Assembly (NCBI GenBank): GCA_016201285.1
Contig: JACQDE010000019.1
Location: 50,289-114,288, forward strand
From: Acidobacteriota bacterium
GTDB lineage: Bacteria; Acidobacteriota; Terriglobia; Acidiferrales; UBA7541
Length of the DNA stretch: 64,000 nt
Direction: 5' to 3'
Positions 1 through 17,154 of the stretch are shown here, piece after piece. The notes beneath the pieces were generated by a model. That model had not been told where the DNA came from. It searched no databases and saw nothing but the letters and a program-made list of their open reading frames with translations. Numbering within the stretch: position 1 is the first letter of the stretch; the number at the start of each line of letters is the position of its first letter. The position numbers were made by a program, and so were the translations under genes.

Positions 1-1780
1 TCTGCCGCCGGCCTCTACACCGCGCCGGCCGCGGTGCCTTCGCCGGCGACGGTGACGGTGCGTGCCACCAGCGCCGCGGACAACACCAAGTCCGCTACGT
101 CCTCCGTCACGATTGCCGCGCCGGTGATTTCCGTGAGCGTGAACCCGGGCACGGCCAGCGTCTCCGCCAGCGGCAGCGTGCAGTTCAATGCCACGGTGAG
201 CGGCACGGCGAATCAGAGCGTCACTTGGACCGTGACCGGCGCGGGCTGCGCCGGCGCCGCCTGCGGCGCCATCTCCGCCGCGGGTTTCTATACCGCGCCG
301 GCCATTGCGCCCTTCCCGGCGAGCGTGACAGTGACCGCCACCAGCGTGGCGGACAACACCAAGTCCGCTATCGCCAGCGTGACCATCGTTGCCATCATCG
401 CCGTCGCCGTCAGTCCCAACTCGGCCACTGTGCTGACCGGCGCAACGCAACAGTTCACCGCCACCGTCACTGGCTCCGCCAACACCATCGTCACTTGGAG
501 CGTGTCCGGCTCCGGGTGCAGCGGGATCGCCTGCGGGACCGTCAGCGCCACGGGCCTCTACACCGCGCCGGGGGCAGTGCCTTCGCCCGCCACGGTCAGC
601 GTCACGGCGACGAGCGTGGCCGACGGCACTAAGTCCGCTTCCGCCACGGTCACCGTGGCCGCGCCTATTTCCGTCAGCGTGGCGCCCGCCATCGTCAGTC
701 TAGTCACCAGCCAGAGCCAGCAGTTCACCGCCACCGTCAGCGGCACCACGAACCAGACGGTCACGTGGAGCGTGAACGGCGTCGTGGGCGGCAATGCCGC
801 CAACGGCACGATCAGCCCCTCCGGCTTCTATCGCGCCCCGGCGCTCGTGCCGACGCCAAACACCATCACCATCACCGCCACCAGCGCCGCCGACTCGACA
901 AAGACCGCTTCGGCCACGGTGACGATTACTTCGCCGCCGGTGGGCGTGCTCGTCTTCGTCTTCCCGAAGAACCGCAACCTGCCCATCGGGCGCACGCAGC
1001 AGTTCACCGCGGAAGTGATCCGCGCACCCAACAACGCCGTCAACTGGACCATTGGCGGAACTGGCTGCGCCGGTGCGGGCAACCCCTGCGGCACGATCAG
1101 CGCGACGGGCCTCTACACGCCGCCGGCCACACCTCCGGCGCCGGCCAGCATCACCATCACCGCCACCAGCCAGGTGGACGCGACCGCCTCGCAGACAGTG
1201 AACGCGAAGATCGTGGTGGGCGTCAGCATTTCGCCGTCCTCGGCGAAGCTCAATCCGAAGGGCACGCAACAGTTCACGGCCGCGATTGCCGGCTCGGCGA
1301 ACACCAGCGTCACTTGGGCCGTGGTCGGCAGCGGGTGTTCCTTGCCCGGCAACCCGTGCGGCACGATTTCCGCCACCGGCCTCTACACAGCGCCCAGCTT
1401 CGTGCCGCGCCCGGGCATGTTCACCATCACCTCTACCAGCGCCGCTGATCCCACCGAACCGGGCGTCGCCACCATCGAGATCTTGCCCGCCAGCGTGCAA
1501 ATCTCTCCGGCCACCGTGCAGGTGTTGCCCGGCGGGCAGATGCAGTTCATCGCCGTGACTAACATCTACCCGCCGCCGGTTTCCACCCAGCCGGTTCTTA
1601 CCTGGTCAGTGAATGGCGTCGTGGGCGGCAATGCCACCCTCGGCACGATTTCAACATCCGGGCTCTACATCGCCCCGCAGACAGTTCCTACGCCCGCCAG
1701 CATCACTGTGGCCGCCGCCAGCACGGTCACGCCGACGACGACTGCCAGCTCGACGGTCACCATCGGCGCGCCCACCGGCG
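1..1780 (+). repeat. Six complete and one partial tandem Ig-like repeat units in the coding sequence
   Basis: Each unit is about 88-96 codons and follows the order: VSVSP-like strand, QQFTA, a T/NQSVTWSV strand, a Gly/Cys loop (GCxGxxCG or VNGVVGGNA), GTISATGLYTAP, then PSPATVTVTATSxAD. The Cys pair is present in units 1, 2, 4 and 5. It is replaced by the Cys-free VNGVVGGNA loop in units 3 and 6, so two loop types interchange. Unit 0 is cut by the window edge. Confidence 0.9.
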
Positions 1781-4700
1781 CCAGCCCTGTGACCCTGCTT
1801 CCGAGTCTCCAGAAGGTACGGCCCTACGATGTCCCCACGGGCGCCGCCACGCTCACGGTCACTGCCGCCGGGAACCAGTACGCCTCCTGGCAGGTGCTTA
1901 TCGAGGGCCGCAACGAAGACCTCACCGGCGTGGACGTCACACTGAGCGACTTCACCGACACCAGCGGCAACCGCATCACCGCGGCCAGCAACGCCGTCAT
2001 CTATCTCGAGAAATTCATCAACGTGCCCTACGTCTCGCGTGCGCAGAGCGTGCCGGGCGAATGGCCCGATCCACTGGTCCCGAAGAAGGACCCGTTCGCC
2101 AACGAGGTCCGCAACGCCTTCCCGTTCGGCGTGAACCGCATCTCGCCGGCCCACAAAATCTATCCGCGCTTGGCGGGCGACACAGTGAATACCGGCATGG
2201 GCGACGGGCGTGTGGCCCCCGGCGGCGTCTCCACGGCCAGCAGCTTCCGTTTCTTCGTGGTCACTATTGACCGCGCCGGTACGATTGGCGCAGGCTCCGC
2301 CACCTTCAAGTGGTCCAACGACGGCGGCGTCACGTTCCAGCAAATCAACCAGCCCATCCCCAACTCCAACGCTATCCCGCTCTCCGATGGCGTGACCATT
2401 GCCTTCCAGCCCGGCACCGTCACCGGCGTCACCGACTTCAACGTCGGCGATACCTACTGGATCTTCGCCGGGCCCATCCGCCAGCAGCCCGTGTGGATCG
2501 ATCTCTTCGTCCCCAGCACTGCGCCGGCCGGCGCCTACACCGGCACCGTGACCGTGATGCGCAGCGGCAAGACCAACGTGACCCTGACCGTCACCTTGAA
2601 CGTGAAGAATTTCGTGTTGCCGGTCAGCTCCTCCATTCCCGCGTTCTTCGGCATGAACTGGACGAGCCTGCTCAACGCCCATTACCTGGCCACGTCCGGC
2701 TCGCAGACGCTGGCGCTCGGGCAGCTCTACGGCCAGGCCTGCCTGATCAATCGCATCAGTTGCGACACGGTCAGCAATTTCCAGCCGGTCTTCACTTTCA
2801 ACCCGGATGGGTCCATCGCAACCTTCGATTACAGCACCTTTGACCAGGCCACCGGGCCGCTCGCCAACGGCACCATCACGCCGCGCAACGAGCAATTGAG
2901 CCTGATCCGCCTGCCGCGCGTCGGCTCCACCGCCAGCCAGCAGTACTTCGCCACGCAGCATATGCTCGGCGAATTCGGTCGCCGCGGCTGGCGCGCCCGA
3001 GCCTTTGATTTCAGCTACGATGAGCCGGTCACCTCTTCCGACTTCCTGGCCGCGATGGACCGCGTCAGCCTGGTCCGTGCGGTGGACCCGCTGCTCCGCG
3101 CCACCGTGACCGCGGACATCTCCAAGTTCAATTACAACCTGATCGGCTATAACAACGTCTGGACGCCCAACTGGACCACGCTGGAGAATAAGGAATTCTT
3201 CAGCGGCCCGAATCCCTCGGCGCGCGCCTTCTACGACGCGCCGCTCGCCACTGGCGACGAGCTCTGGTGGTACGAATCCTGCCTGACCCACGGCTGCGGC
3301 TCCACCGGCGCCTCGCCGCAGCACGACAACTATCCCAACTTCAACGTGGATGTCCCGGCACTCTTCAACCGCTCTTGGGGTTTCTCCGCCATTCAGCCGT
3401 ATGGAGTCACCGGCCTGTTCGGCCAGAACGCCGTGCTTGCCTACTCGCGCTTCTTCCAGATGGCGGCGCCGCGCGTGGACGTCTGGGACAGCGTGTACTA
3501 CCTCGGCGGCAACGGCGATGGCACGCTCTTCTATCCGGGCCGCCCGAGCGATATCGGCGGCACGACGCACGTCCCGGTCGAATCGCTCCGCCTGAAGATG
3601 ATCCGCGACGCCCTGGTGGATCAGGAGGTTGCCATCTTCCTCCAGAACCGCGGCGACGGCCCGTTCGTGGCCGACACCATCTTCCAGGAGGCCAAGAACC
3701 TCACGTCGGTGCTGGCCGACCCGAACCTGTTCGTTTCGAGCAGCCGCGCGCTGATCAACCAGGCCGGCTCGCCACCGCTGCCGCCGCCCATCAACGTACC
3801 CGCCGCGGGCGGATGCTACACCGATCCCGTCACCGGCAACCGCGTCTGCCGCGTCACCGACCGCGCGCTGTGCGCCCGCGCTGCGCACCACTTCTATTCC
3901 TATTGGCCCATCTGGAACCAGACCGGCACGCACATGATCGTGGAGTGCCTCAGCTGGTCGGGCGCTCCATTGGCTTCGTCCACAGCCATCCTCGTCCGTG
4001 ATTCGGATCTCGCGGTGCTGGGAAATGTGCTGGCGGGTATGCCTGCGGGAGTCAGCCTGAAAACAAGCAATCTGTTTTGGGCGTGGAACAATCCAAACAA
4101 ATTCTTCGGCTACGGCACCGGTGCATCCAAGACGCAGTTGTGGGAATGGAACCCATTTACGAAGACGGGCGCGCTGATCAAGGATTTCGCGGGCTTGACG
4201 TTCTTCGGCCGATCGCTTACGAGCATTACGCTTTCGTACGTCAGTTTCGACGATAACTATTTCCTGCTCGAAGGCAACGACACCACAGGTCTCACCACAA
4301 TCCTGTTTGTTTACGATCGCCTGGCAAATACCGTTCTGATGCCAGGGCTGGATCTGAACCAGTTCCCCTACTACGACGAGTCGGTGATGACCAAGGCCAA
4401 CAAGCCCTATGTGCGCGCAAACGACTCGAGCAACATTCCGCAGGCCTGGGTTTACAGCCTGGACTTTACGACAAAGATTCGACCCTCCGAAGGCGGGCAT
4501 CACGCCCACGGTTTGCTGCCGAACGGCACGCCCGTTCTCACCAAGGCATCTTCCAACCGGAGCTGCCCAGCCGGATCAATTTCCGGAGTTCCGGGAAGCA
4601 GCTGGAAGCCGACCGCCGTCGTGGTCGACGAAACCGTGGACACCACGGGAGCGGGCCAGAATGCGGATCCGCTCGCTTCGGTGTTCCTCAAGTTGGGCTG

Positions 4701-5049
4701 CGGCGTGCCGGGCCAGCACAACTTTGACCACTGGTCCTGGAACAACACCCAGAAAGACCGCTTCTTCAATTCGAGCCTGAGCTACAGCGGTTTTGCGTCC
4801 GACCCGATCGCCTTTGGCATTCTCCGCTTCCGGCTGCAATTCAATGCCCTGGGCAACATCACCGGCGATCAGATTGACCTGCTTGCCCATCATCGCTCGG
4901 ACGACACCAAGTACGGCTACTTCGCTAAGCCGCGCGCCAGTTGCAACCAGCAGGGCTCGCGCTGCATCTTCTCCAGTACGATGACCATCCAAACCAACAA
5001 CCTGGACCCGCAAGAGCATCTCTATGTCGTGGATGGCTTCCCACCATAA
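1..5049 (+). CDS. Giant secreted Ig-repeat protein with DUF4091-like and propeller-like modules (5' truncated)
   Basis: The frame is open from base 1, so the true start lies before the window; at least 1682 codons are present. Three zones are visible. About 580 residues of tandem Ig-like repeats carry the signatures QQFTATVSG, VTWSV and SATGLYTAP. A middle module (about 1795-3780) begins near KVRPYDVPTG and contains GEWPDPLVPK, QPVWIDLFVPS, WWYESC-HGCG and GNGDGTLFYPGRP; it aligns along its length with the minus-strand gene at 6560-8632 (DUF4091/glycoside-hydrolase-like). A C-terminal module (about 3790-5049), with TGNRVCRVTDRALC, EGGHHAHG and LAHHRSDD, aligns along its length with the gene at 5155-6540. 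It is probably extracellular or surface attached, with the Ig repeats acting as spacer or adhesive arms. Catalytic function is not proven; a carbohydrate-active role is inferred from the DUF4091 similarity. Confidence 0.85.
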   Translation, partial: SAAGLYTAPAAVPSPATVTVRATSAADNTKSATSSVTIAAPVISVSVNPGTASVSASGSVQFNATVSGTANQSVTWTVTGAGCAGAACGAISAAGFYTAPAIAPFPASVTVTATSVADNTKSAIASVTIVAIIAVAVSPNSATVLTGATQQFTATVTGSANTIVTWSVSGSGCSGIACGTVSATGLYTAPGAVPSPATVSVTATSVADGTKSASATVTVAAPISVSVAPAIVSLVTSQSQQFTATVSGTTNQTVTWSVNGVVGGNAANGTISPSGFYRAPALVPTPNTITITATSAADSTKTASATVTITSPPVGVLVFVFPKNRNLPIGRTQQFTAEVIRAPNNAVNWTIGGTGCAGAGNPCGTISATGLYTPPATPPAPASITITATSQVDATASQTVNAKIVVGVSISPSSAKLNPKGTQQFTAAIAGSANTSVTWAVVGSGCSLPGNPCGTISATGLYTAPSFVPRPGMFTITSTSAADPTEPGVATIEILPASVQISPATVQVLPGGQMQFIAVTNIYPPPVSTQPVLTWSVNGVVGGNATLGTISTSGLYIAPQTVPTPASITVAAASTVTPTTTASSTVTIGAPTGASPVTLLPSLQKVRPYDVPTGAATLTVTAAGNQYASWQVLIEGRNEDLTGVDVTLSDFTDTSGNRITAASNAVIYLEKFINVPYVSRAQSVPGEWPDPLVPKKDPFANEVRNAFPFGVNRISPAHKIYPRLAGDTVNTGMGDGRVAPGGVSTASSFRFFVVTIDRAGTIGAGSATFKWSNDGGVTFQQINQPIPNSNAIPLSDGVTIAFQPGTVTGVTDFNVGDTYWIFAGPIRQQPVWIDLFVPSTAPAGAYTGTVTVMRSGKTNVTLTVTLNVKNFVLPVSSSIPAFFGMNWTSLLNAHYLATSGSQTLALGQLYGQACLINRISCDTVSNFQPVFTFNPDGSIATFDYSTFDQATGPLANGTITPRNEQLSLIRLPRVGSTASQQYFATQHMLGEFGRRGWRARAFDFSYDEPVTSSDFLAAMDRVSLVRAVDPLLRATVTADISKFNYNLIGYNNVWTPNWTTLENKEFFSGPNPSARAFYDAPLATGDELWWYESCLTHGCGSTGASPQHDNYPNFNVDVPALFNRSWGFSAIQPYGVTGLFGQNAVLAYSRFFQMAAPRVDVWDSVYYLGGNGDGTLFYPGRPSDIGGTTHVPVESLRLKMIRDALVDQEVAIFLQNRGDGPFVADTIFQEAKNLTSVLADPNLFVSSSRALINQAGSPPLPPPINVPAAGGCYTDPVTGNRVCRVTDRALCARAAHHFYSYWPIWNQTGTHMIVECLSWSGAPLASSTAILVRDSDLAVLGNVLAGMPAGVSLKTSNLFWAWNNPNKFFGYGTGASKTQLWEWNPFTKTGALIKDFAGLTFFGRSLTSITLSYVSFDDNYFLLEGNDTTGLTTILFVYDRLANTVLMPGLDLNQFPYYDESVMTKANKPYVRANDSSNIPQAWVYSLDFTTKIRPSEGGHHAHGLLPNGTPVLTKASSNRSCPAGSISGVPGSSWKPTAVVVDETVDTTGAGQNADPLASVFLKLGCGVPGQHNFDHWSWNNTQKDRFFNSSLSYSGFASDPIAFGILRFRLQFNALGNITGDQIDLLAHHRSDDTKYGYFAKPRASCNQQGSRCIFSSTMTIQTNNLDPQEHLYVVDGFPP

Positions 5050-5069
5050 ACCCATGGAAGCAGACCAGC

Positions 5070-5089
5070 GGGGCCGGACGGCCGGCCCC
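5070..5089. other. Perfect GC-rich hairpin after the giant gene
   Basis: Eight-base arms GGGGCCGG and CCGGCCCC flank ACGG, 20 bases after the stop codon at 5049. No T-run follows on either strand, so it is not a classical intrinsic terminator. It may stabilise the mRNA end or terminate with a factor. It sits between the giant gene and the ribosome-binding site of the next gene. Confidence 0.5.
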
Positions 5090-5154
5090 GTGGCGCAGGT
5101 GGAATTCTCTGGAGCGTCCCCCCTCCTTCGACGTTGAATCACGGAGGAATCCTC

Positions 5155-6540
5155 ATGAACAGATGGCTGGCCGCAGTGCTGTTGTCTCTCGTGCCCCTCT
5201 CTCTGCTCGCGCAGGAGCGCAAGGAAGAAGACCGCAGGGAAAAGCCGGATCGTCAGCCGAAGTTGCAGGCGATTACGTTGCCCGCCGTCGGCGGCTCCTA
5301 CGTGGATCCGAGCACCGGCAACCGCATCTGGCGCGTGAGCGACCGCGGCCTCTGCACCCGCGGCGCCAAGCACTACTATTCTTACTGGCCGGTGTGGAAC
5401 GCGGACGGCTCGCATCTGCTCGTCGAGTGTCAGGGCTGGCTCGGCAGCCGCGACTCTTCCACCATCCTGCTTGTGCGCGATAAGGATTTGAAGGTCGTCG
5501 GCGATGCCCTCGGCAGTGCCCGCAGTTTCAACAAGGGCCATCTCTTCTGGTCGTGGAAAGATCCTCAGGCTTTCTACGCCTTCCGCGATTCCGAAGTCTG
5601 GAAGTGGAACCCCTTTTCCGGAAAAGGCTCCCGCATCGCTAGCCTGGACAATCTCAAGGTGGGCGAATCCTCCGTTCGCTCCATCGTGCTCGCGTACGTG
5701 AGTTTCGACGACCGCTACCTGCTCCTCGAACTGCAAGGGCCAAACCTGCGCCGCCAGAAACCCAACCCGCACGACACGCTCGGTCTGCTGACCTACGACA
5801 TGCAAGCTGGAAAAGTGGCCGGGCTGCTCGACATCACGACCTGGCGTTTCTACGACGAAGCGGTCTTCACCAAGGACAATCATGTATGGGTGCGCATGAC
5901 CGACGACGCCGGCGCACCGCAGAGCTTGCGCTTCTCGCTCGATTTCAGCGAGCGCAACCGCGTCGCCGAAGGCGGCCACCACGCCCACGGGATCCTGCCC
6001 GATGGCTCGCCCGTGGCGGTGAAGGAAGCCAGCAACCGCGATTGCCCGCCCGGTTCGCCCAGCGGCAATCCCAACGATAAGGAGTACCCGGCGAAAGGCT
6101 GGAAGCCCACCGCCGTCCTGCTGGACCCGCGCGTGGATACCGCCGGAGCGGAGCGCAACGCTCCGATTGCTTCCATCCTCTTCAAGCTCGGCTGCCAGAT
6201 CAAGGGCCAGCACGAGTTTAGCCATTTTTCCTGGAACAACTCTCAGCCCGACGTGTTTTTCGGGGAAACGTGGAGCTACGGCTCCGCGGAAGGCAATCCG
6301 ATTGCCGACGCCATCATCCGCGTGCGGTTGAAGTTCGATGGCGGGGGGAAAATCAGCGGCGACGAGATTGACGTGCTCGCGCACCACCGCTCGGACAAGA
6401 GACACGGATATTGGGCCACCCCGCGCGTCTCCTGCAACCAGCAGGGTACCCGCTGCCTCTTTGCCAGTGCCATGTCGAACGGCGCGAACGACTCCGATGG
6501 CGGGCCGAACCTGTACATCGTAGACGTGCCGAAGCGTTAG
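5155..6540 (+). CDS. Secreted propeller-like protein, paralogue of the giant protein's C-terminal module
   Basis: 461 residues. The ATG at 5155 is chosen because GGAGG (5143-5147) lies 7 bases upstream and it starts a clean signal peptide (MNRWLAAVLLSLVPLSLLAQ). The upstream in-frame ATG at 5134 precedes that site. Repeated blade-like patterns (WPVWNADGSHLLVE, YVSFDDRYLLLE) resemble beta-propellers such as the oligogalacturonate-lyase class, but this is a weak fold-level guess. Conserved with the giant protein are DPSTGNRIWRVSD, EGGHHAHG, NRDCPPGS, FSWNN and LAHHRSD. The His clusters could bind metal or form an active site. It lies 105 bases after the giant gene and converges on the DUF4091 gene with a 19-base gap. 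Exact function unknown. Confidence 0.85.
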   Translation: MNRWLAAVLLSLVPLSLLAQERKEEDRREKPDRQPKLQAITLPAVGGSYVDPSTGNRIWRVSDRGLCTRGAKHYYSYWPVWNADGSHLLVECQGWLGSRDSSTILLVRDKDLKVVGDALGSARSFNKGHLFWSWKDPQAFYAFRDSEVWKWNPFSGKGSRIASLDNLKVGESSVRSIVLAYVSFDDRYLLLELQGPNLRRQKPNPHDTLGLLTYDMQAGKVAGLLDITTWRFYDEAVFTKDNHVWVRMTDDAGAPQSLRFSLDFSERNRVAEGGHHAHGILPDGSPVAVKEASNRDCPPGSPSGNPNDKEYPAKGWKPTAVLLDPRVDTAGAERNAPIASILFKLGCQIKGQHEFSHFSWNNSQPDVFFGETWSYGSAEGNPIADAIIRVRLKFDGGGKISGDEIDVLAHHRSDKRHGYWATPRVSCNQQGTRCLFASAMSNGANDSDGGPNLYIVDVPKR

Positions 6541-6559
6541 GGTCGTTCGGGGATTGCGT

Positions 6560-8632
6560 TTAGCGGGGGGAGTCTGCCGGCGGTGATTTCTCCGCGATAC
6601 GACGCGCGAGCGTGCGGCGCAGCGCCACCCACGCCTGCGGGTCGGCGGACCAGTGGCGGGCGTCCTGCGCCACGCGCTTCACTTCCTGCCGCAGAAATTC
6701 CTCTTGCCCCAGTTTTCGCAGAAGGTAAGCATACTCCGCATCGATGAAGGAGTCGCGAATCATCTTCAGCCGCAGCGATTCAATGGCGATGTGGTGCTGG
6801 CCGCCGATCTGTTCCGGCCGGCCCGGATAGAACAGCGTGCCGTCGCCGTTCCCACCGAAGTAGTAGATGCTTTCCCAGGGATCGGCCGGGCGCGGAGTCT
6901 TATCCCAGTTGTAGTGCAGCGCAAAGACCGTATCCCAGTAGAGCACGCCGGAGACGTCGTAGGTCACCGCGCTGAGCAGGCCGAACACGCGATTAGCCGC
7001 GCCGGAAGCGTCCACCATGGTGCTGGGCCAGCCGGTGTCTTGTGCAGCGCGGCCTTCGCCGCCGCAACCGTGGCTCATACATGACTGGTACCACCAGAGC
7101 GTGTCGCCCGCCTTCAGCCGCGCGTTGTAGTCCGCCCGCGGCTGCATCTTCCCCCAAAGCCACGACTGCACCGGAAAATCCGACGGCGTCGCAAAGGAAT
7201 TCACCAACGGACACCAGCGGGTAACAATGCCGAACAGCGCATCGTTGAGCTGCGTGGTCGCCAGCCGCGGAATCTGCGGCTCCGCGTCGCGGACGCGCCG
7301 GCCGCGCACACGCAGTTGCTCGAAGTCCTGCAGGCTGTGCGGCTCGTCGAAGCTGTAGTCGAACAGGCGGTCGAACCAGCCGCGCTCGCGGGCGTGCTTC
7401 GCGAAATCCTTCACCACGCTCGCAAATTGTGCGTCGTTCAAGCCGGCGAACTTCGGCAGCCGCAGCGACGTCCATCGCGCGCCGCGCGGCGTGCCCTGGC
7501 CGTCCATGAACGCAGCGGCCGCTCGGTCCAGCCGCGAGTAGTCCGTGCGCGCGATGGAGCCGTCCGGCTTGAATTCGTACGCCGGCGCGAAGTCCCGCAG
7601 GCCGTCAATGGTGATGGAGTTGCGCAGCGCCGCGCGCGCGTAGGACTGCATCAGCTCGAGCGATTGCTGTTCGCTCGCCTTTCCGCCGAAGTGCGCTGCG
7701 GCCACGCCGCTCGAGGTGAAACCGAAAAAACTCGCCAGCGTGAACGTCGAGGGAATCGCAAAGTTCAGGACTTCGATGGAGAGCGGCAGCCGCAACGCCG
7801 CGCCGCCCGCCTTGACGCGGACTTGGCCGGCGTAGGTGCCGGGCGCGGCATCCGCGGGCACTTGCACGTCCACCCAGACGGGCTGGTGACGCTGCGGCCC
7901 AGCAAAGATCCAGAATTCGTCCCCGGCGAGAAAATCGTTGCCGAGGCCGGCGCCGCGGAAGGCCACGCTGACGCCCTGCTCGAGCGCCGCCGGCTTCCGC
8001 GAAGTGGTGCGCGCCGCGGACGGCGTCGCCGGGCCCGGCTCGCTCCACCACTCGAAGGTGGCCGTGCCCAGCGGCCCGGGGCGCACAATTCGCACCACGT
8101 AGCGCTTCGGCGTCCCGCCGGAGTAATGCCCGCCGGCAACGGCATCACCATCACTCCGCGGGAGTGAAAGCGTCCGGCCTTTTTCCGCGGGATACCACTT
8201 GTATGCGCGCGAGATGCGGCGCAGGTCGTAGGGGAAGGCGTTGCGCCGCTCACCGTACTCTGGGTCCACCTTCGGAATCAGCGGGTCGGGCCACTCGCCG
8301 AAGTCTCCCTCCACGTTCGAGCGGTAGAAGATGTTGAGGAACTCTTCGCGGTAGATGATCACGTTGGCCGCGGGAATCCGCGACGCTCCGCGGGCGAACC
8401 CGGAGACGTCCACATCCACGCCCGGGCAGTCCTCGCCGGACGCGGTCACCACCACTTGAAAAGAGCAGATTTCGTTCCGCGCGCAGACCAGCGACGCCGA
8501 CGACGACGGGAGCGCGCCGTACGGCCGGACCTTGACCGGGCCTTCGATGATTCGCGCGGAGCAGCGGGGTTGCGCGGGAATCGCGCCCGCCGCGAGGAGA
8601 AAAACCGCCAGGCATGACTGCAAGGCGCGCAC
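6560..8632 (-). CDS. Secreted DUF4091 (glycoside-hydrolase-like) protein
   Basis: 690 residues from the GTG at 8632, which begins a typical signal peptide (VRALQSCLAVFLLAAGAIPAQ) and has GGCGG 7 bases upstream. The longer ATG at 8701 would overlap the previous gene and bury the signal sequence. Family features are KVRPYGALP, GEWPDPLIPK, QPVWVDVQVPADAAPGTYAG (a beta-sandwich strand), FDYSFDEP, WWYQSC and GNGDGTLFYPGRPE followed by ESLRLKMIRD. The SFDEP acidic pair is a plausible catalytic site by analogy with TIM-barrel hydrolases. It is the last gene of the minus-strand polysaccharide block, 23 bases after a glycosyltransferase, suggesting it trims or processes the polymer. Its closest visible relative is the central module of the giant protein at 1-5049. 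Confidence 0.85.
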   Translation of the reverse strand: MRALQSCLAVFLLAAGAIPAQPRCSARIIEGPVKVRPYGALPSSSASLVCARNEICSFQVVVTASGEDCPGVDVDVSGFARGASRIPAANVIIYREEFLNIFYRSNVEGDFGEWPDPLIPKVDPEYGERRNAFPYDLRRISRAYKWYPAEKGRTLSLPRSDGDAVAGGHYSGGTPKRYVVRIVRPGPLGTATFEWWSEPGPATPSAARTTSRKPAALEQGVSVAFRGAGLGNDFLAGDEFWIFAGPQRHQPVWVDVQVPADAAPGTYAGQVRVKAGGAALRLPLSIEVLNFAIPSTFTLASFFGFTSSGVAAAHFGGKASEQQSLELMQSYARAALRNSITIDGLRDFAPAYEFKPDGSIARTDYSRLDRAAAAFMDGQGTPRGARWTSLRLPKFAGLNDAQFASVVKDFAKHARERGWFDRLFDYSFDEPHSLQDFEQLRVRGRRVRDAEPQIPRLATTQLNDALFGIVTRWCPLVNSFATPSDFPVQSWLWGKMQPRADYNARLKAGDTLWWYQSCMSHGCGGEGRAAQDTGWPSTMVDASGAANRVFGLLSAVTYDVSGVLYWDTVFALHYNWDKTPRPADPWESIYYFGGNGDGTLFYPGRPEQIGGQHHIAIESLRLKMIRDSFIDAEYAYLLRKLGQEEFLRQEVKRVAQDARHWSADPQAWVALRRTLARRIAEKSPPADSPR

Positions 8633-8655: not shown

Positions 8656-9354
8656 TCAGGATGTGAACCGGATGCGCAGCAAGTGCTTCAGGTAGCGCCA
8701 CACCTGCGCCGGGCCCATTTTGCTGCCGCCGTGGGTCCGCTCTTCGAACGTGTACGGCACTTCCGCGGCCTTTTCGTAATTGCCGCGCGCCAGCACTTCC
8801 AGCAGGATCTTGTAGCCCAGCGGCTTCAGCGTCCGGCCTTCGATCACCGAGCGGCGCAGCAGGAAAAATCCGGACATGGGGTCCTTTACGCGGCGGATTC
8901 TTCCGGGCAGCAGGATGGTGGCCATCACCGTGGCCGTCCAGGAAATGATGCGCCGGCGGAATTTCCAGTCGCTCACGCTGCCCTGCTCAACGTAGCGGCT
9001 GGCGATGGCCATCTGCGCGCTGCCGCTGCGCATCGGCTCGAGAAGCTTCAAGAGGTGTTCCGGCGGGTGTTGCAGGTCGCCGTCCATGACGCCCAGGATG
9101 TCGCCCTGCGCGACGCGCCAGCCGGCGAGCACGGCGGTGGAAAGGTCGCGCTCGTTCACGCGCACCACCAGCTTCAGCCACGGGCGCTCGGCCTGCAACC
9201 GGCGCACTTCGTCGGCCGTGCCGTCGGGACTGCTGTCGTCCACAATGATCAGTTCATAGACATCGCCGCTCGCGGCCAGCACTTTGCCGGTGCGTTCCAC
9301 CAGTTGTTCGATATTGGCGCGTTCTTTGTAAGTCGGGACGACGAGTGAGATCAC
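8656..9354 (-). CDS. GT2 glycosyltransferase, polyprenyl-phosphate mannose/glucose synthase type
   Basis: 232 residues from GTG 9354, with GGAG 8 bases upstream; the start overlaps the stop of the preceding gene (GTGA). An ATG at 9396 is possible but lacks a ribosome-binding site. It has the GT2 N-terminus ISLVVPTYKERANI, the nucleotide-binding VDDSSPDGT, the DxD-type MDGDLQHPPE and the DPMSGFFLLRR motif of dolichol-phosphate-mannose synthases. It lacks C-terminal GtrA-type membrane helices. The expected role is transfer of a sugar from a nucleotide donor to polyprenyl phosphate on the cytoplasmic face, for use by the membrane protein encoded just upstream. Confidence 0.88.
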   Translation of the reverse strand: MISLVVPTYKERANIEQLVERTGKVLAASGDVYELIIVDDSSPDGTADEVRRLQAERPWLKLVVRVNERDLSTAVLAGWRVAQGDILGVMDGDLQHPPEHLLKLLEPMRSGSAQMAIASRYVEQGSVSDWKFRRRIISWTATVMATILLPGRIRRVKDPMSGFFLLRRSVIEGRTLKPLGYKILLEVLARGNYEKAAEVPYTFEERTHGGSKMGPAQVWRYLKHLLRIRFTS

Positions 9355-11048
9355 GGGCGATTCTCCGCTGCGGGCGCGAGCGCGCTGGCCGGACATCCGG
9401 AAGTCCGGGGGGACAATTGAAAATATCGCCGGCCTTCGATCTGGAACGACGGCAGCAGGCAGTACTCGTTCTGCAGGAATGACGCAAACTGCTTGAGCGA
9501 GGGCCGCGGGTGCTGCTTCTCGCTCCAGGCGGCTTCCGGCGGGTTCTGCCCCAGCGCCAGCCGGTCCATCACAAAAGCGCGCCCGCCCCGCGACTCCACA
9601 GTCTTCACCTTTTCGTTGAAATAGTTCATCCAGTCGGTGCGGTCCCAGGCGTATTTGGTGTAGTCGTTGGTGGTGTTCAGGAAGCGCGCGCCGCCGTACA
9701 GATTCGTCATCGTCAGGTAGGTGATAGAAGCATCCCGGCCGAAATTGACAGGCAGGTCGTCCGGCTTCAAGAACGGCCGGACCGTTTTCATCTCCGCTTC
9801 CAGCACCATGTAGCGGCGCTGGGAGGGCAACAGAGACTCCACGAAATTGTCCGCGGCAATGAAGGCGAGGCAGGCCACCAGCATGCCGGCGAGCAGGCGC
9901 GGCCGGGGAACCCGGCGCAGCAGGTCCTGCACGGCCAGCGCGCCGAACACGTACTGCGAGAGCATGGAGGGCATGAACCGCTGCACGTCGCTCCCCAGCC
10001 AGCCGACGCTGAAGTACATGTTGATAGCCAGCGGCACGTAGAGAGCGCCGCAAAGAATGCGCATCCGCGTGTCGCCTTTCCACATGAGGTAAAGCGGATA
10101 GAGGTACACCGGCGCCAGCAGCAGCCAGACCAGCACGAACTTTCCGAGCTGCCACGGCAGCGACGCCATCTTCACCAGGTGCGGGTCCTTCAGCATCAGC
10201 CCGTTGATCATGTAGGGCAGCTCGTATATCGCCAGGATGCCGTGCGCCTGGCCGAAGGAAGCCTTCATCGGGCTCAAGGCGTCAAACTGCATCGGCTGCG
10301 TGCCCGCCGCCGCCATCCATGCCTTGATCTCCTGCCGCTCGAGCGGGATCTGCACATACAGCAGGCAGGAAACGGCCAGCACCCCCACCAGTATGATTCC
10401 CGTCAGGCTGTACACGGTCAAGTAGCTGCACCGGCGGAAAAACGATTTCGCTGGCGGCAGGAAAAACAGCAACAGCCCCGCCCCGATGGCGTTAAACGCG
10501 TGCACCAGCCAGAACGTGCACGCAAAGCATGCATACGTGGCCGCGCCGAACGCAATCACCAAGCGGCGGCCCTCGCTTATCTCCTTCCCCATTTGCAATG
10601 CAAGGTAATAGCCGGCGAAAGCCAGCAACATCGAGGTGGAGTAGAGCCGCCCGGACCCGACGTAGATCCACACACAATGCGCCGTGGCGTAGGCGAACGA
10701 GCCGGCAAATGAGATCGGGCGCGAATTCGTCAGCTCGAATAGGATGCAGTAGAGCAGCATCACCGACAACGCCGCGGTCGTGAAGTCCCAGAGATCCAGG
10801 ACCGCCCTCATGCCGGTCTCGATGCCCACGTGGTTCAGCCACTGCCACAGCCACAGCGGCAGCATGCGCTGCTCCAGGTGGCGAAATTCCAGCAGCGCGC
10901 GGATCTGGCCCGTCTCCGCCCAGTACACTGTGTCGAGCGCGTCGTTCTCGTCCCACGAAAAGCTCATCATGTACCCGGCCAGGATCAGCAGGAAGATGAG
11001 CAGAGCCTTGCCGAAGCGTGCGCTCAGGCCGGGGATGGAGGAATTCAT
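9351..11048 (-). CDS. Polytopic membrane protein, GT-C/GT39-like
   Basis: 565 residues from the ATG at 11048, which overlaps the upstream stop (ATGA); the longer reading start at 11108 would lie inside the preceding gene. There are about ten hydrophobic helices, starting FGKALLIFLLILAGYMMSF, then SWDENDALDTVYWAE, an early acidic loop of the kind that carries catalytic residues in GT-C enzymes. The soluble C-terminal ~150 residues include FLNTTNDYTKYAWDRTDW. It is coupled to the polyprenyl-P-sugar synthase at 8656-9354, the classic donor-maker/user pair. Family assignment is inferred from topology and context; sequence identity to a named GT-C family was not established. Confidence 0.65.
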   Translation of the reverse strand: MNSSIPGLSARFGKALLIFLLILAGYMMSFSWDENDALDTVYWAETGQIRALLEFRHLEQRMLPLWLWQWLNHVGIETGMRAVLDLWDFTTAALSVMLLYCILFELTNSRPISFAGSFAYATAHCVWIYVGSGRLYSTSMLLAFAGYYLALQMGKEISEGRRLVIAFGAATYACFACTFWLVHAFNAIGAGLLLFFLPPAKSFFRRCSYLTVYSLTGIILVGVLAVSCLLYVQIPLERQEIKAWMAAAGTQPMQFDALSPMKASFGQAHGILAIYELPYMINGLMLKDPHLVKMASLPWQLGKFVLVWLLLAPVYLYPLYLMWKGDTRMRILCGALYVPLAINMYFSVGWLGSDVQRFMPSMLSQYVFGALAVQDLLRRVPRPRLLAGMLVACLAFIAADNFVESLLPSQRRYMVLEAEMKTVRPFLKPDDLPVNFGRDASITYLTMTNLYGGARFLNTTNDYTKYAWDRTDWMNYFNEKVKTVESRGGRAFVMDRLALGQNPPEAAWSEKQHPRPSLKQFASFLQNEYCLLPSFQIEGRRYFQLSPRTSGCPASALAPAAENRP

Positions 11049-12271
11049 TGGGCTTCCCTCTTGGTCGGGACTCCCGGCGACGGCACTGTGCGCGGCGTGG
11101 CGGTCCACATCACTTGTTGCCGGCCGGTCAGGTACCGTGCCATGCCGTGCAGCAACGCTAGGTTCATCACCGAAAAATAGTAGGCGACCGCAAAGATCCC
11201 CGCCGGCGCGCCGTGCCGCTGCCGGCTGTAGCCCGCTAGCGCGAGCAGGTAGAACGCGGCCTGCGCCGCCAGCGCCGCGGCAAAGAACGGCCGAGCTGCC
11301 AGCACTGCGTTGGAGACCAGCGCCGCCAGCAGGAACAGCGGCACCAGCCAGCGCACCACCTTATGCGAGAAATAGGCAAACGCCGGCAGCCCCTTGAATG
11401 GGTTCAGAAAGTGCGGGTTCCGCAGCAGCGTCTGGTAAGCGCCGGCGCCGATGCGTACTTTCCGCCGGTACTCGGCGGCCAGCGTTGGCGCGGCTTCTTC
11501 GGCGCCCACTGCCTCGGGGTCGTACACCACCCGGTGTCCTTCATAACGAATTTCCATTGGGAGCTGAAAATCTTCTACGATCCACTTCTGCATCGGACGG
11601 AAGAGCGAGCGGCGGACGGCATAGACGCCGCCGTTGGCGCCCAGCACGCAGTTCAGCCTGTTTTCGAGAAACTTCAGGGCCACTTCGTAGCGCCAGTAGA
11701 GACCCTCCATTTCCGTCTTGCCGCCAGGGCTTACCAGCCGCAGCTCGCCGCAGACCGCGCCGGTCATCGGGCGGGCAAAGTGCCGCACCAGCCGCCGCAC
11801 GCAGTCCGGCTCGAGTATGGTGTTCGCGTCGGAGAAGATCAAAATGTCGGCCGTGGTGCGCTGGGCCAGGTCGCTGATCACCGCCAGCTTGCCGCGCCGC
11901 GCCGGGAACGGAAACACGCGCAAGCCCGGGTGCGGGAAGCGAGCAGCACGTTCAGGAGTCGAGTCGCTCGGCGCGTCCAGTCCGAGCAGCACTTCCATTT
12001 TTTCGGCGGGATAGTCGAGCTGCGCGGTGTTCCGCAGCTTTTCCTCAATGACGTCTTCTTCGTTGTACGCAGCGATCAGCAGCGCCACGCGCGGCTCGAA
12101 CTCGCGGCGCGCGCCGCCGCGGCGGCTGCGGCGCGTCAGAAGAAAGAGAATGTCGCGCGAGGTCTGCGTCAGCGAGGCCAGCAGAAACAGCAACAGGGGA
12201 TAGAGGGCATACGTGTAAGCCACCGCGCCCACGCTCACCCAGAATACCAGTTCTGCCGCGGACATGGTCAC
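11045..12271 (-). CDS. Membrane GT2 glycosyltransferase
   Basis: 408 residues. GTG 12271 overlaps the upstream TGA (GTGA); an ATG two codons later is an alternative. There is one N-terminal helix, then a GT2 domain with VALLIAAYNEEDVIEEKL, DAPSDST, FSDANTILEPD (DxN/DxD site), GANGGVYAVRR and EDFQLPMEIRYEG (the ED of processive-type GT2 enzymes). Four C-terminal helices follow. This architecture adds sugars to a lipid-linked intermediate at the inner membrane. It lies between the polymerase-like gene and the GT-C-like gene, with stop/start coupling on both sides. Confidence 0.88.
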   Translation of the reverse strand: MTMSAAELVFWVSVGAVAYTYALYPLLLFLLASLTQTSRDILFLLTRRSRRGGARREFEPRVALLIAAYNEEDVIEEKLRNTAQLDYPAEKMEVLLGLDAPSDSTPERAARFPHPGLRVFPFPARRGKLAVISDLAQRTTADILIFSDANTILEPDCVRRLVRHFARPMTGAVCGELRLVSPGGKTEMEGLYWRYEVALKFLENRLNCVLGANGGVYAVRRSLFRPMQKWIVEDFQLPMEIRYEGHRVVYDPEAVGAEEAAPTLAAEYRRKVRIGAGAYQTLLRNPHFLNPFKGLPAFAYFSHKVVRWLVPLFLLAALVSNAVLAARPFFAAALAAQAAFYLLALAGYSRQRHGAPAGIFAVAYYFSVMNLALLHGMARYLTGRQQVMWTATPRTVPSPGVPTKREAQ

Positions 12272-13701
12272 CAGGCCCGACCTCTCACTCCGCTACCGCC
12301 GCGCAGCCGGCCGACGCCTTCATTCCGGCCGTAAGTGGGCTTGCCGTTTCCCGCCGCCGGCGCCGGTCCCACATGGTCCTTCACCCGGTCATACACGGCC
12401 TGCAGCGCGACGCCGAATCCCGCCAGATAGTACAGGTAGTAGTCATAGGCCAGGTGGGCAAAGAAACCGGCCAGCATGAAGGAGAGGATACTCACCTGCG
12501 TGGCCCGCGCCAGCAGACTGAGTTCGGCTAATTCGGGCCGGTCATGGCATTGCTGGTGAATCCGCCGCATGCTCCGGATGGAGGTGATGAGCAGCGCGAC
12601 AAAGAGCAGGAAGGCAGGGATGCCGGCTTCGGAGGAGACCTCCGTATAGGTGTTGTGCGTGCCCTTCCAGGACTGCGAGTCGCGCGTCACCGTGCCGTTC
12701 ACGATCGGGAAATTGCCCAGCCCCAACCCGAACACCGGATTCTGGAACGTGAACTTGATCGAGTGCATGAGCAGCGTCTTGCGCTGCATTTCCGATTGCT
12801 CGGCCGAGAGCGAAGCGGCGCTGGTGGAGTAGCTTTCCTTGTCCCACATGGTGCTGAGCCGGTCCCAGAAGACGCCGGGCGCCACCAGAACCGCCACGAC
12901 AATGGCCAGCACGAAAGCCACGCCCATCAGGCGCGCCTTGGCGCTATCGCGCAGGATCAAGGCCCAAACAAGCAACAGCGAGATGATCACGCAGATCATG
13001 TTGCCGCGCGACGCCGTCTTCACCGTCATCAGCATCACCAGCCCGAACGTGCTCACCAGCACAAGGGACTTGATGATCGAGCGGCTGCTCACCAGCAGCA
13101 CGGCAATGTACGGCAGCATCACGGCCACGGCAATTCCCAGGTAGTTGCCCGAAAAGAAGCCCAGCATGGCCCCGCGCATTCGCCCTTCCGAGTCCATCGC
13201 CGGCCGCTGCACTAGGCTGTACGCGGAAACAAAGAGCATGCACAGGATCATCGCCCAGAGCAGCTTCCGCACGCGGTCCGTCGTGAATACCAGTTGCGAC
13301 AGCAGGAAGAAGATGATCAGCGTCTTCAACCAGTCTTGGTAAAGAATTTCAAACGCACGGCTCCGCCAGAAGGCGAAGGGAACACTCATGGTGAAAAAAA
13401 AAGTCAGGCCGAGAACGAGCTTCAGTTCGGTCGTCATGATCAGCGGCGCCTGCCCGCGGATCACCGCGAACCCGTACGCTGCGATCGCCATCATCGCCGC
13501 AATCTGCGCCAGCGGAATCAGCCGCAACGGGGGAATAATGTCCGAGGGCCGCGCATAGAGAAGGATAGTGAAGAGTAACAGAGCGAAGTAGGCCGACCTT
13601 GCCCGGTGCAGCGCCGGGTCCCTGGCCTCGATCTCTTCGAGCGAGAGTGTTGCCGTCGCCGGCGCCGCCATGTTTCTCGGAATCGTGCTCGTATAACCCA
13701 T
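12268..13701 (-). CDS. O-antigen ligase/polymerase family membrane protein (Wzy_C type)
   Basis: 477 residues with about twelve hydrophobic segments. The large periplasmic loop contains GLGLGNFPIVNG, then WKGTHNTYTEVSSEAGIPAF, the HN-x-Y-x-E-x-G signature of the WaaL/Wzy_C superfamily. The enzyme acts on the periplasmic face to polymerise or ligate lipid-linked repeat units. The start at 13701 is 15 bases after the GT4 stop; an internal ATG at 13671 (MAAPATATL) is a possible shorter start. The end overlaps the next gene by 4 bases. Confidence 0.85.
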   Translation of the reverse strand: MGYTSTIPRNMAAPATATLSLEEIEARDPALHRARSAYFALLLFTILLYARPSDIIPPLRLIPLAQIAAMMAIAAYGFAVIRGQAPLIMTTELKLVLGLTFFFTMSVPFAFWRSRAFEILYQDWLKTLIIFFLLSQLVFTTDRVRKLLWAMILCMLFVSAYSLVQRPAMDSEGRMRGAMLGFFSGNYLGIAVAVMLPYIAVLLVSSRSIIKSLVLVSTFGLVMLMTVKTASRGNMICVIISLLLVWALILRDSAKARLMGVAFVLAIVVAVLVAPGVFWDRLSTMWDKESYSTSAASLSAEQSEMQRKTLLMHSIKFTFQNPVFGLGLGNFPIVNGTVTRDSQSWKGTHNTYTEVSSEAGIPAFLLFVALLITSIRSMRRIHQQCHDRPELAELSLLARATQVSILSFMLAGFFAHLAYDYYLYYLAGFGVALQAVYDRVKDHVGPAPAAGNGKPTYGRNEGVGRLRGGSGVRGRAW

Positions 13702-13716
13702 GTGATTCTTCGCGTC

Positions 13717-14964
13717 CTAGATTCTCCCCGCCGGCCGGTGGCCGGTGACGGCCACGGCGCTGGCATCCGCGGCCCGCGCCAGGATTTCTTCCATCTTGGC
13801 GGCCACGCTTTCCCAGCCATGGTCGCGAACAACTTTTTCGCGGGCCGCGCGAGCAACAGCGTCGCGCCGCGAAGCATCGCCCAGCAGGAACGTCACCGCC
13901 CGGGCAAACCCCTCCGGCTCGTCCTCCAACAGGATGTCACGCCCGGGGGCCACCGGCAAGCCTTCCGCGCCCAGGGTTGTCGAAACGACAGCCCGCTCCA
14001 TGCTCATGGCCTCAAAGATTTTGATGCGCGTTCCGCCGCCGATGCGCAGCGGCACCACCGCTGCTTCCGCCCGCGCCAGATAAGGCCTCACATCTTCGAC
14101 CGTCCCTGTAATCTCTACCCAAGCATCCTCCGCCGCCAGCGCCTTCAGCCGCGCCGAAGGATTCTTTCCCACCACCGTGAGGCTGGCGTGCGGCGCCTCG
14201 CGCCGCACCCGCGGCCACACCTCGCGCACAAACCAGAAAATCCCGTCCTCGTTCGGATGCCAGTCCATCGAGCCGACGAACACCAGGTTGCCCCGCCGCC
14301 GCTCCGCCGCCTGCGGCCGGAAGAACTCGAGGTCCACCCCGGTGGGCAGGTCGGAGACATGCTGGACGCCGAACTCGCCCTCGATGATGCGCCGGTCGTC
14401 CTCGGAAACGGTGATCACGTGGTCGAACGTCCGGCAGACTTCGCCTTCGATTGCCTGCGCCTTCTCCCATTCCGCGCGCAGCAGCCACTTCCGCAGCGCG
14501 TTCGTCTCCCTCTCCCAGTGCCGCTTGCGGATGACGTACTCCACGTTGTGTTGGAAAATCACCCGTGGCCGCAGCGGCGAATCGAGGATCGCCCCGGCGG
14601 TTTGCAGGAAATCCGCCAGCACAACGTCGCACTTCTCGCGGGTCGCAACCTGTTCGATAGCCGCGCGGAATTCCGGCACGCAGTATTTTTCCAGGAAATA
14701 CGGGAAGCGGCTTGCCCGGCTGGCCAGAAACTTGAAGTAGAACGCCGGCGAAAACGTCGTCGTCTCGTTCCAGAATACCGGCGTGCAACTGCGGAAGAGC
14801 TTTCGCATCTCGGCAATGGGTCCCGCATCGCGCTCCCGGTCCGCCAGCGACACGGCATGGATCTCCACACGGTCCGCCAGCCGCGAAAAAATGTTCAGTG
14901 TGCGGATCTTCCCGCCCGCGTCGGCGGGAAAAAGGGGCCTCGGTAATGCCAATAGAATCTTCAC
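13717..14964 (-). CDS. GT4 glycosyltransferase, exosortase-locus (Stp1-like) type
   Basis: 415 residues, GTG start at 14964. A Rossmann-type N-terminus (MKILLALPRPLFPADAGGKIRT) matches the start seen in the PEP-CTERM/EpsH-associated sugar transferase family (TIGR03087). The C-terminal GT4 domain has LVFVGSMDWHPNEDG, the E-x7-E region GGGTRIKIFEAMSMERAVVST and the nucleotide-sugar pocket. It is predicted to transfer a sugar to the lipid-linked exopolysaccharide unit in the cytoplasm. It is the first gene of the downstream half of the block, after a 219-base gap carrying a candidate promoter. Confidence 0.86.
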   Translation of the reverse strand: MKILLALPRPLFPADAGGKIRTLNIFSRLADRVEIHAVSLADRERDAGPIAEMRKLFRSCTPVFWNETTTFSPAFYFKFLASRASRFPYFLEKYCVPEFRAAIEQVATREKCDVVLADFLQTAGAILDSPLRPRVIFQHNVEYVIRKRHWERETNALRKWLLRAEWEKAQAIEGEVCRTFDHVITVSEDDRRIIEGEFGVQHVSDLPTGVDLEFFRPQAAERRRGNLVFVGSMDWHPNEDGIFWFVREVWPRVRREAPHASLTVVGKNPSARLKALAAEDAWVEITGTVEDVRPYLARAEAAVVPLRIGGGTRIKIFEAMSMERAVVSTTLGAEGLPVAPGRDILLEDEPEGFARAVTFLLGDASRRDAVARAAREKVVRDHGWESVAAKMEEILARAADASAVAVTGHRPAGRI

Positions 14965-15035
14965 GGCAGTCCAGGAGCAAACCTTATTCTAGCAGCACAT
15001 CCAGTACCAGTCCTATGTCGACAAAATGCAACGTA

Positions 15036-15065
15036 ATTTTAATATTTTCTATACTTTAAAGACAA
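15036..15065 (-). promoter_or_regulatory. Candidate promoter for the downstream half of the exopolysaccharide block
   Basis: In the 219-base AT-rich gap (14965-15183), the minus strand reads TTGTCT (15065-15060), 18 bases, then TAAAAT (15041-15036). The -10 matches 5 of 6 and the -35 matches 4 of 6 consensus positions. A transcript would begin near 15029 and lead into the GT4 gene at 14964. No sigma-54 type site was seen in this gap. Confidence 0.35.
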
Positions 15066-15183
15066 CTTGCTTTGGGCCGTGCTCCCAGAAAACAGTAATT
15101 TGTTGCTGCAAATGCGCAGCTTCTTGCACACATTTCTGGCCGTTCAAATCCGGCGCTTCGCTCCTTGTTCCTGCGCGGCTGGG

Positions 15184-17154
15184 CTACGGTTTCGCCGTCT
15201 GCACTTCGGTGCGGTCCACTCGCGGTTTGCTCAGCAACTGTGCATCACGGTCAAAGGCGACGCGGCACCACAGTTCGAAATTCAGCAGGCGCCAGATGGC
15301 ATCCGTCGCGTCGGCGCGGCCCCGGCGATGCGCGTCGAGCAGGTCGCGCACGTAGCCGGGATTCAGCAGGCGGCGCTCTTCGAGCCGACCGTCGGTCAGC
15401 ACCTTTTCCACGCGCTCAGAGAGCTGGTGGCGCAGCCACGGCTTCACCGGCGTGGGGAAACCCATCTTCGTTCGGTTCAGCACTTCATCGGGCAGCCGCC
15501 CGGCCATCGCCCGCCGCAATAGATATTTTCCGGAGAGGTAGCGCACTTTGTGCCGCGCCGGGATGCGCGCCGCGAATTCCACCAGCTTGTGGTCGAGGAA
15601 CGGCACGCGGCTCTCGATCGAGGCCGCCATGCTCATCTGGTCCTGCTTCATCAGCAGCTCGACCAGGTAGGTCTTGATGTCGAGATACAGCAGCCGGCTC
15701 AACAGCGATTCCGGCCCGCCGTCCTTCGCGAAAAACGCCATCGAATTCTTGTAGGCGTCCGTCGCCCGCAGTTCGTCCGCCAGCTCGCGAGTGAAGAGTT
15801 TTCCCTGCATGGCCTGTGGAAAGACGGAATACCAGTTGTCGAAATACATGTTCTCGAAGTTCTCGGGACGGTAGAGGAAGGTGTGGCGCAGCTTGCGGCT
15901 CAAGCCCTCCGGCAGAACGCCGGATTCGAGTGACTTCGCCACCAGCCCGCGCAGCGTTCCCGGCACCAGTTTTCGATACGTGGGTCCGTAGCGCAAGTTC
16001 CACAGCGTGGCGCGGTACTTCAGGTAGCCGGCGAAAATCTCGTCGCCGCCCTCGCCGGTGAGCACCACGATCACCTTCTGCCGCGCCAGCCGCGACACGA
16101 AGTTCAGCGCCACGCTCGACGGCCACACCAGCGGTTCGTCCTCGTGCCAGATCAGTTGCGGCAGCGCGCCGAAGAAATCGTCCGGCCCCATCAGCACCTG
16201 GTTGTATTCGGCGCCGATATGCGCGGCGACGTTCTTCGCGTAAGGCAGCTCGCTGAACTGGTCTTCGGCGTAGCCGACGGAGAAGGTCTGGATGCGTTCC
16301 TTCACCAGGCGCGTCATCGTGGCCGCAATGGCGCTGGAGTCGAGCCCGCCGCTGAGAAAGACGCCCAGCGGCACGTCGCTCATCAGCCGCAGCCGCACCG
16401 ATTCGGTGAACAGCTCGTCGAAGCGCTGGACGTATTCATCTTCGCTGGAAATCGACTCGTCCGGCGTGATGTCCAGGTCCCAGTAGCGCTCGATGCGCGG
16501 CTGCGGACTGGCCTCGCCGAGCTGAATGCCCATGCGGTGCCCGGGCAGCAGCTTGCGCACACCGGCGTACATCGTTTCCTCCGACGAGATATAGCCCAGC
16601 GCGAAGAACTCCGGCAGCGCGGCGCGGTTCATCTCCGCGCGCATGCCGGGCAGCTCGAACAGCGCCTTCATTTCCGAGGCGAAGGCGAAGCGCCCGCGCG
16701 AAATCGTGTAGTAGAAGGGCTTGATGCCCAGGCGGTCGCGCGCGCAGAAGAGGCGCTGCTTCTTCGTGTCCCAGATGGCGAAGGCGAACATCCCGCGCAG
16801 GTAGTGGACGCAATCATCGCCGTATTCTTCGTAGAGGTGGATGATCGTCTCGGTGTCGCTGCGTGTCGAGTAGCGGTGGCCGCGGCGCTCGAGGTCCTGC
16901 CGGTACTCCGCGTGGTTGTAAATCTCGCCGTTGAAAACGATCCAGATCGTGCCGTCTTCGTTCGACATCGGCTGGTGGCCGCCGGCCAGGTCCACGATCG
17001 CCAGCCGCCGGAAGCCAAAGCCCGCCGGCGCCGCGGTGTAGTAGCCCTCGTCGTCCGGCCCGCGGTGGAAGATGACGCCGGCCATTGCGCGGAGTTCCGC
17101 CTCAGACGCTGCCCGCGCCCCGTTCAACGCCAGCACTCCGCAGATTCCGCACAT
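15184..17154 (-). CDS. Asparagine-synthase-like glutamine amidotransferase (first of two)
   Basis: 656 residues. MCGICGVL gives the N-terminal nucleophile Cys2. The glutaminase domain shows RGPDDEG, RLAIVDLAGGHQPM and FNGEIYNH; the synthetase domain shows LSGGLDSSA (PP-loop) and LTGEGGDEIFAGY. The length fits the exosortase-A-system amidotransferase family (TIGR03108) better than short AsnB. It adds ammonia from glutamine to an ATP-activated carboxylate. In this locus the substrate may be a uronic acid of the polymer or a surface peptide rather than aspartate. GGAG lies 11 bases upstream of the ATG, and the gap to the heparinase-like gene is 4 bases. Confidence 0.9.
   Translation of the reverse strand: MCGICGVLALNGARAASEAELRAMAGVIFHRGPDDEGYYTAAPAGFGFRRLAIVDLAGGHQPMSNEDGTIWIVFNGEIYNHAEYRQDLERRGHRYSTRSDTETIIHLYEEYGDDCVHYLRGMFAFAIWDTKKQRLFCARDRLGIKPFYYTISRGRFAFASEMKALFELPGMRAEMNRAALPEFFALGYISSEETMYAGVRKLLPGHRMGIQLGEASPQPRIERYWDLDITPDESISSEDEYVQRFDELFTESVRLRLMSDVPLGVFLSGGLDSSAIAATMTRLVKERIQTFSVGYAEDQFSELPYAKNVAAHIGAEYNQVLMGPDDFFGALPQLIWHEDEPLVWPSSVALNFVSRLARQKVIVVLTGEGGDEIFAGYLKYRATLWNLRYGPTYRKLVPGTLRGLVAKSLESGVLPEGLSRKLRHTFLYRPENFENMYFDNWYSVFPQAMQGKLFTRELADELRATDAYKNSMAFFAKDGGPESLLSRLLYLDIKTYLVELLMKQDQMSMAASIESRVPFLDHKLVEFAARIPARHKVRYLSGKYLLRRAMAGRLPDEVLNRTKMGFPTPVKPWLRHQLSERVEKVLTDGRLEERRLLNPGYVRDLLDAHRRGRADATDAIWRLLNFELWCRVAFDRDAQLLSKPRVDRTEVQTAKP

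Follow-up and report, generated by a model that had tools for sequence, protein, structure and literature searches.

A giant repeat protein joining a GH123-type glycosidase module to a PL22-like propeller, beside separate genes for both modules and a predicted exopolysaccharide cluster in an Acidobacteriota bacterium

The window analysed here is a stretch of 64,000 nucleotides (G000:C54:50289-114288) from an Acidobacteriota bacterium whose assembly comprises 3.67 Mb in 87 contigs. It opens inside the gene of a giant protein that ends in two modules, one of the GH123/DUF4091 glycosidase type (GH, glycoside hydrolase) and one predicted to be a PL22-like beta-propeller (PL, polysaccharide lyase), and each module is also encoded by a stand-alone gene just downstream, called here A and B, respectively. 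The whole giant gene (L003:6285-15038, that is G000:C54:46584-55337, plus strand) is an open frame translated into 2917 aa, of which the C-terminal 1682 aa, with Ig-like (immunoglobulin-like) repeats and both modules, occupy window 1..5049 on the plus strand. The order from the N-terminus is a lipobox-like sequence, 19 Ig-like repeats, the glycosidase module (Ga) and the propeller (Gb). The repeats, counted by motif, measure about 90 aa each, are spaced by 89-97 aa and match Big_2 and I-set. Read by eye rather than with a predictor, the N-terminus is a hydrophobic stretch up to LLQTAC (Cys60) followed by GGG, and the giant of a relative genome, G012, shows LSGC-GG at the lipobox position, also by eye. 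Ga covers giant residues 1840-2489 (window 1813..3762, plus strand), with an Asp-Glu pair at residues 2242-2243 (window 3019-3024), and Gb covers residues 2499-2913 (window 3790..5034, plus strand). Gene B (5155..6540, plus strand, 461 aa) starts 105 bp past the stop of the giant on the same strand; gene A (6560..8632, minus strand, 690 aa) carries the corresponding Asp429-Glu430, and both products appear by eye to have a signal peptide. A scan of window 4900-6750 found no promoter or terminator.

The homology between fused and separate copies runs along the whole of each module. With BLASTP, the alignment of A spans giant residues 1840-2489 (253/664 identical, 33 gaps, E 4e-132) and that of B residues 2499-2913 (207/433 identical, 33 gaps, E 1e-132); no match links A to B (best E 0.69). 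An earlier note on this DNA had read the centre of the giant as homologous to A and its C-terminus to B, and the ensemble as a Rosetta-stone fusion. These alignments, full length over window about 1813-3762 and 3790-5034, bear this out: they contain the motifs quoted at the time and clearly go beyond short shared motifs, and the fusion of two modules that are each also encoded separately is real. The same note placed fused and split forms side by side in the window; both are indeed present, but the giant begins 3.7 kb outside it. The fused and split copies are paralogues adjoining in one genome. A frameshift or an assembly error joining A and B was rejected as the origin of the giant: fused and separate copies share 38% and 48% identity, the reading frames are uninterrupted, and three other proteins show the fusion too.

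These three proteins (P0017, P0018 and P0019), which all look N-terminally partial, have the two modules in the same order, with 58-67% identity to Ga. They come from protein searches in which only the 7994-7998 candidates sharing most words were scored, within a length range. A literature search of open-licence papers found no description of such a fusion.

The earlier note regarded both families as uncharacterised. This must be rejected for the first one, since DUF4091 proteins related to GH123 include beta-N-acetylgalactosamine (beta-GalNAc)-cleaving enzymes with solved structures (PMC11087588), and the GH123-type part adds a new member to an established kind. In Pfam, A passes the cut-offs of PF13320, the GH123 catalytic model (32.6 bits for 23.1), and of PF22680 (31.8 for 27), and stays below that of PF19543 (18.1 for 22). 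The window part of the giant matches N-terminal models only (PF19543, 24.8 for 22; PF22680, 27.8 for 27), and the whole protein scores 23.2 with PF19543 (cut-off 22) and 26.4 with PF22680, just under 27; membership of its module in GH123 is supported by homology to A and by fold. A profile of seven A-type rows retrieves 11 PDB sequences, including 8k2f (E 5e-48), 8k2j, 8k2h, 5l7v/5l7r and 5fqe, and the catalytic-type pairs of A (D429-E430) and of the giant (D2242-E2243) are aligned in the profile output to the DE of NgaDssm. The closest known enzyme is the Group 1 oligosaccharide-releasing beta-N-acetylgalactosaminidase NgaCa, a GH123-related DUF4091 protein (PDB 8K2F/8K2G; Sumida et al. 2024, PMC11087588). 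Its cleft is open, and the disaccharide Gal-beta1,3-GalNAc-beta-pNP was the one substrate on which that study found it active. The Group 3 enzyme NgaDssm is nearly as close to A and Ga. Compared with NgaCa, the giant has 19 Ig-like repeats and a propeller at the C-terminus in addition, and A and Ga carry an insert of 109-114 aa in the N-terminal domain. GH193 was considered as the CAZy number of Group 1 and dropped, as this number appears in beta-1,2-glucanase papers.

In a tree of 25 A-type rows, drawn without L103 (3 stops), A groups with the protein of locus L027 of G012, and Ga with P0017, P0018 and P0019, a group joined next by two G012 proteins without the B module. This topology suggests that A and Ga are paralogues that split before the window's genome and G012 did. 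Both groups form one clade of eight rows (support 100/100), and the insert marks this clade alone: the 17 other rows have 0-2 aa at this place, and the partial P0017 has only 28 aa. In A the insert spans 109 aa (residues 138-246, window 7895-8221).

For the second module, the link to a known family is structural. PL22 oligogalacturonate lyase (PDB 3C5M, 3PE7) leads all other structural matches by about 9 Z units for B and by about 7 for Gb, which points to a PL22 propeller fold in both predicted structures, and B and PL22 share a first-blade signature. Identity to PL22 is 16% or less. By sequence, B matches no Pfam family to E 1, PF14583 included, and no NCBIfam family; PF14583 has no match in the window's genome. 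Global hhalign of B against PL22 gives no usable residue pairing, and the comparison of B with solved structures by sequence gives no link, only four matches (E 0.2-1.3) on His-tag-like stretches. PL22 lyases are cytoplasmic, whereas B has its apparent signal peptide and six Cys that are invariant in a 20-row alignment of the family. In the same alignment, six His together with Arg424, Asn428, Gln430 and Tyr419 are invariant in all rows covering them. A second protein search, with the B profile and the same limits on candidates and length, returned the same 16 proteins, and none of 19 pattern matches in contigs of GTDB genomes was confirmed. Among these relatives, P0002-P0013 are stand-alone B-type genes without a GH module, and P0014 and P0015 carry the B module behind other repeat domains. 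The B-module tree, for which only this module was kept of P0014, P0015 and the fused proteins, and 430 aa of the G044 row, is poorly resolved on whether B came from Gb. A wider propeller family is linked to B by hhalign (probability 98.6%, E 1e-15, 358 columns); the profile extended in this way has no match in PDB and reaches PL22 at a probability of 4.5% (E 0.009). The PL22-like propeller family is unnamed in Pfam and NCBIfam. Some of the wider PL22-like propellers bear C-terminal repeats (L169:12526-14679, L170:7114-10041 and L025:1194-3332), which in G044 (L025) match CE2_N (carbohydrate esterase 2).

The two modules also tend to go together in other genomes. Among 61 relatives, B matched three genomes, two of these matches being remote, and A matched nine, including all three with B. 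A search of 399 genomes of the class gave B-profile matches in 17, A matches in 70 and both in 8 (p 0.004, or 0.011 without the window's own genome). With the 15 genomes having a strong A match (E<1e-40), both were found in 6 (p 9e-6), or in 5 when the window's genome is set aside (p 9e-5). The B profile gives weak, partial matches everywhere but in the window's genome. The two 399-genome searches share handles and were taken as one draw, and scoring was limited to 4 and 2 candidates per genome, so that matches may be missed.

Proximity gives a similar picture. In the best 80 of 86 A loci, a model combining the B set with six wider-family proteins finds a propeller at most 10 kb from A in six (L033, L034, L047, L048, L053 and L058), all within the 14 loci assigned to Acidobacteriota by record title. 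About 0.1 would be expected by chance per 14 loci, assuming a 5.5 Mb genome and two copies; with the four Bryobacterales/Bryobacteraceae loci merged to one, a rough model gives p 6e-5. In whole genomes, the gap between A and propeller is 3.7 kb in G223, 3.8 kb in G069, 7.5 kb in G043 and 23 kb in G123, and the genes lie on separate contigs in G044, G051 and G055. As G223, G069 and G043 share their gaps with L053, L033 and L034, they are almost surely the same genomes, and the two results are not independent. Strong A is present in 7/8 genomes with a tight propeller match (p 2e-10), a figure biased upward because the alignment used (A5) was built from eight proteins, six of them found as A neighbours, and in 7/17 at a looser cut (p 3e-7). 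It should be added that the "strong A" and "tight propeller" cut-offs were chosen after the tables were seen, and that all these p values are optimistic because the genomes are related.

Gene A closes a predicted exopolysaccharide (EPS) biosynthesis cluster (8656..33443, minus strand), of which 17 proteins were scanned for families; it begins 23 bp past a gene of glycosyltransferase (GT) family GT2, on the same strand. From the A side, the cluster encodes a GT2, a membrane protein, another GT2, an O-antigen-ligase type protein, a GT4, an amidotransferase and a heparinase II/III-type protein (17159-20710, minus strand), whose long N-terminal extension may reflect a wrong start. Then come GT4s, a flippase (21903-23390, minus strand), a second amidotransferase and the polyprenyl glycosylphosphotransferase EpsB_2, and at the far end a tyrosine kinase, an ATPase, Wzz, Wza-type export and a sigma-54 activator. 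The two amidotransferases (15184-17154 and 23390-25345, minus strand) are of XrtA/PEP-CTERM type, below the cut-off of that model; several XrtA names in the scan likewise fall under the curated cut-off, and two of the 17 proteins (585 and 495 aa) have no family. Further on, a UDP-glucose/GDP-mannose dehydrogenase family gene (38016..39329, minus strand) is a possible source of uronic acid precursor. In G012, matching EPS genes likewise precede the A homologue, and 3.6 kb further on lies a giant that has Ga but lacks B.

When the 17 cluster proteins are used as tblastn queries, at least one matches in 29/80 A loci, compared with 15/80 for 10 control proteins from elsewhere in the window; these included the UDP-sugar dehydrogenase, which with PcnB accounts for 8 of the 15 loci. 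Among the 14 Acidobacteriota loci, 11 have at least two EPS matches, eight the heparinase type and three a control match.

The genes preceding the giant (L003:180-6041, some 4 to 10 kb before the window begins) encode a diguanylate cyclase, a sigma-54 activator, a polysaccharide deacetylase, an ATP-grasp protein and a 271-aa protein without Pfam family. In G012, the giant comes after an ATP-grasp gene and a gene for a 269-aa product without Pfam family, as well as a sigma-54 activator, the last identified by sequence.

On balance, we favour the reading that the pair, joined in the giant and separate as A and B beside the cluster, cuts the cluster's own polymer at two kinds of linkage. A and Ga would hydrolyse internal beta-GalNAc (or beta-N-acetylhexosamine, beta-HexNAc) linkages by substrate-assisted catalysis, as do the Group 1 oligosaccharide-releasing enzymes. 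B and Gb would act on a uronate linkage through the beta-elimination known from PL22, but with another active-site set made of the six invariant His with Arg424, Asn428, Gln430 and Tyr419. The giant would be lipid-anchored, its 19-repeat stalk keeping both modules away from the outer membrane, and A and B would act free, so that the same two cuts would exist in surface-bound and free versions and the EPS would be trimmed, released or remodelled. The heparinase II/III-type protein and the nearby UDP-sugar dehydrogenase fit a polymer, itself hypothetical, with HexNAc and uronic acid. PslG, PelA and AlgL are hydrolases or lyases of EPS clusters that process their own polymer; the present case resembles them by a degrading enzyme encoded within a polysaccharide biosynthesis cluster, and differs by the folds and by the fusion of hydrolase and lyase-like modules on a lipobox-bearing repeat stalk. 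The earlier proposal of functional partners in two polysaccharide-cutting steps thus gains from fusion, co-occurrence, proximity and folds, apart from the first family being already characterised. Of its "surface or environmental" target, the environmental part is less likely than the organism's own EPS, given the place of A at the end of a predicted EPS cluster.

Several observations weigh against this reading. At least two EPS queries match in only 20/80 A loci (11 Acidobacteriota, 8 with Proteobacteria or Acidiferrobacteraceae labels and 1 Myxococcales), a count in which the two amidotransferase queries can score one gene twice, perhaps in L047. Most Myxococcota loci have no EPS match at all, so that the EPS setting is shown mainly for Acidobacteriota. 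Co-occurrence, whose absence the earlier note would have taken as refuting the partnership, is found in this class, but 9/17 B-profile genomes have no A match, and the G012 giants carry the GH module without B. In the propeller, hhalign leaves the C-terminal half of B unlinked to PL22 (E 0.22), and the HPH motif, which in PL22 provides metal ligands, appears not to be kept: TPRVSC stands opposite THPHPSF, PR replacing HPH, in a comparison made by eye since the profile alignment ends short of that region. Moreover, propellers also work as binding scaffolds. In the glycosidase module, PF13320 is unmatched in the giant (window part to E 1, whole protein to E 0.001), and Foldseek places Group 3 NgaDssm (E 1.2e-24) level with Group 1 NgaCa (E 1.7e-24), so that the oligosaccharide-releasing-only type is not settled. 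P0018 and L028:5331-7316 have DSP and NEP for DEP, each having lost one residue of the catalytic pair, which suggests that some repeat-bearing members may be non-catalytic. Finally, NgaMg, a Group 1 protein, was inactive on every substrate tried (PMC11087588).

Three alternatives, not mutually exclusive, were weighed. It is conceivable, though rather unlikely, that the glycosidase module is the sole enzyme, the propeller having lost its lyase chemistry to become a carbohydrate-binding module that holds the substrate; the ten invariant residues look catalytic, unlike a variable binding face, and stand-alone genes such as P0002-P0013 exist without any GH module. Improbably, the pair could instead degrade polysaccharides of other organisms, such as environmental GalNAc/uronate glycans, as food: both GH123-type enzymes and PL22 take part in the breakdown of glycans as nutrients, and an anchored surface form would suit scavenging, but A lies only 23 bp past the GT2 gene, EPS-type neighbours are found in 11/14 Acidobacteriota A loci and no uptake or uronate-catabolism gene is named among the 17 cluster proteins scanned. 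Least probable is an incidental fusion, in which repeat-rich lipoproteins acquire secreted domains encoded nearby, A and B having no substrate in common, as the G012 giants, P0014 and P0015 might suggest, for the same order recurs in three other proteins at 58-67% Ga identity, and co-occurrence and proximity exceed chance.

If the pair does act on the cluster's own polymer, a bolder proposal may be put forward, tentatively and as a possibility that we ourselves rather doubt. B and Gb would be the first members of a new polysaccharide lyase family, whose propeller site, rich in His, stands in place of the PL22 metal site, and would form with A a dedicated GalNAc hydrolase and uronate lyase machine for a self-made, glycosaminoglycan-like EPS, the missing natural substrate of oligosaccharide-releasing beta-GalNAcases. 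More generally, a beta-GalNAcase relative at the end of a predicted EPS cluster, with a paralogue fused to a lyase-like partner, designates one candidate substrate, the cluster's own polymer, and an unnamed propeller family gains a predicted chemistry.
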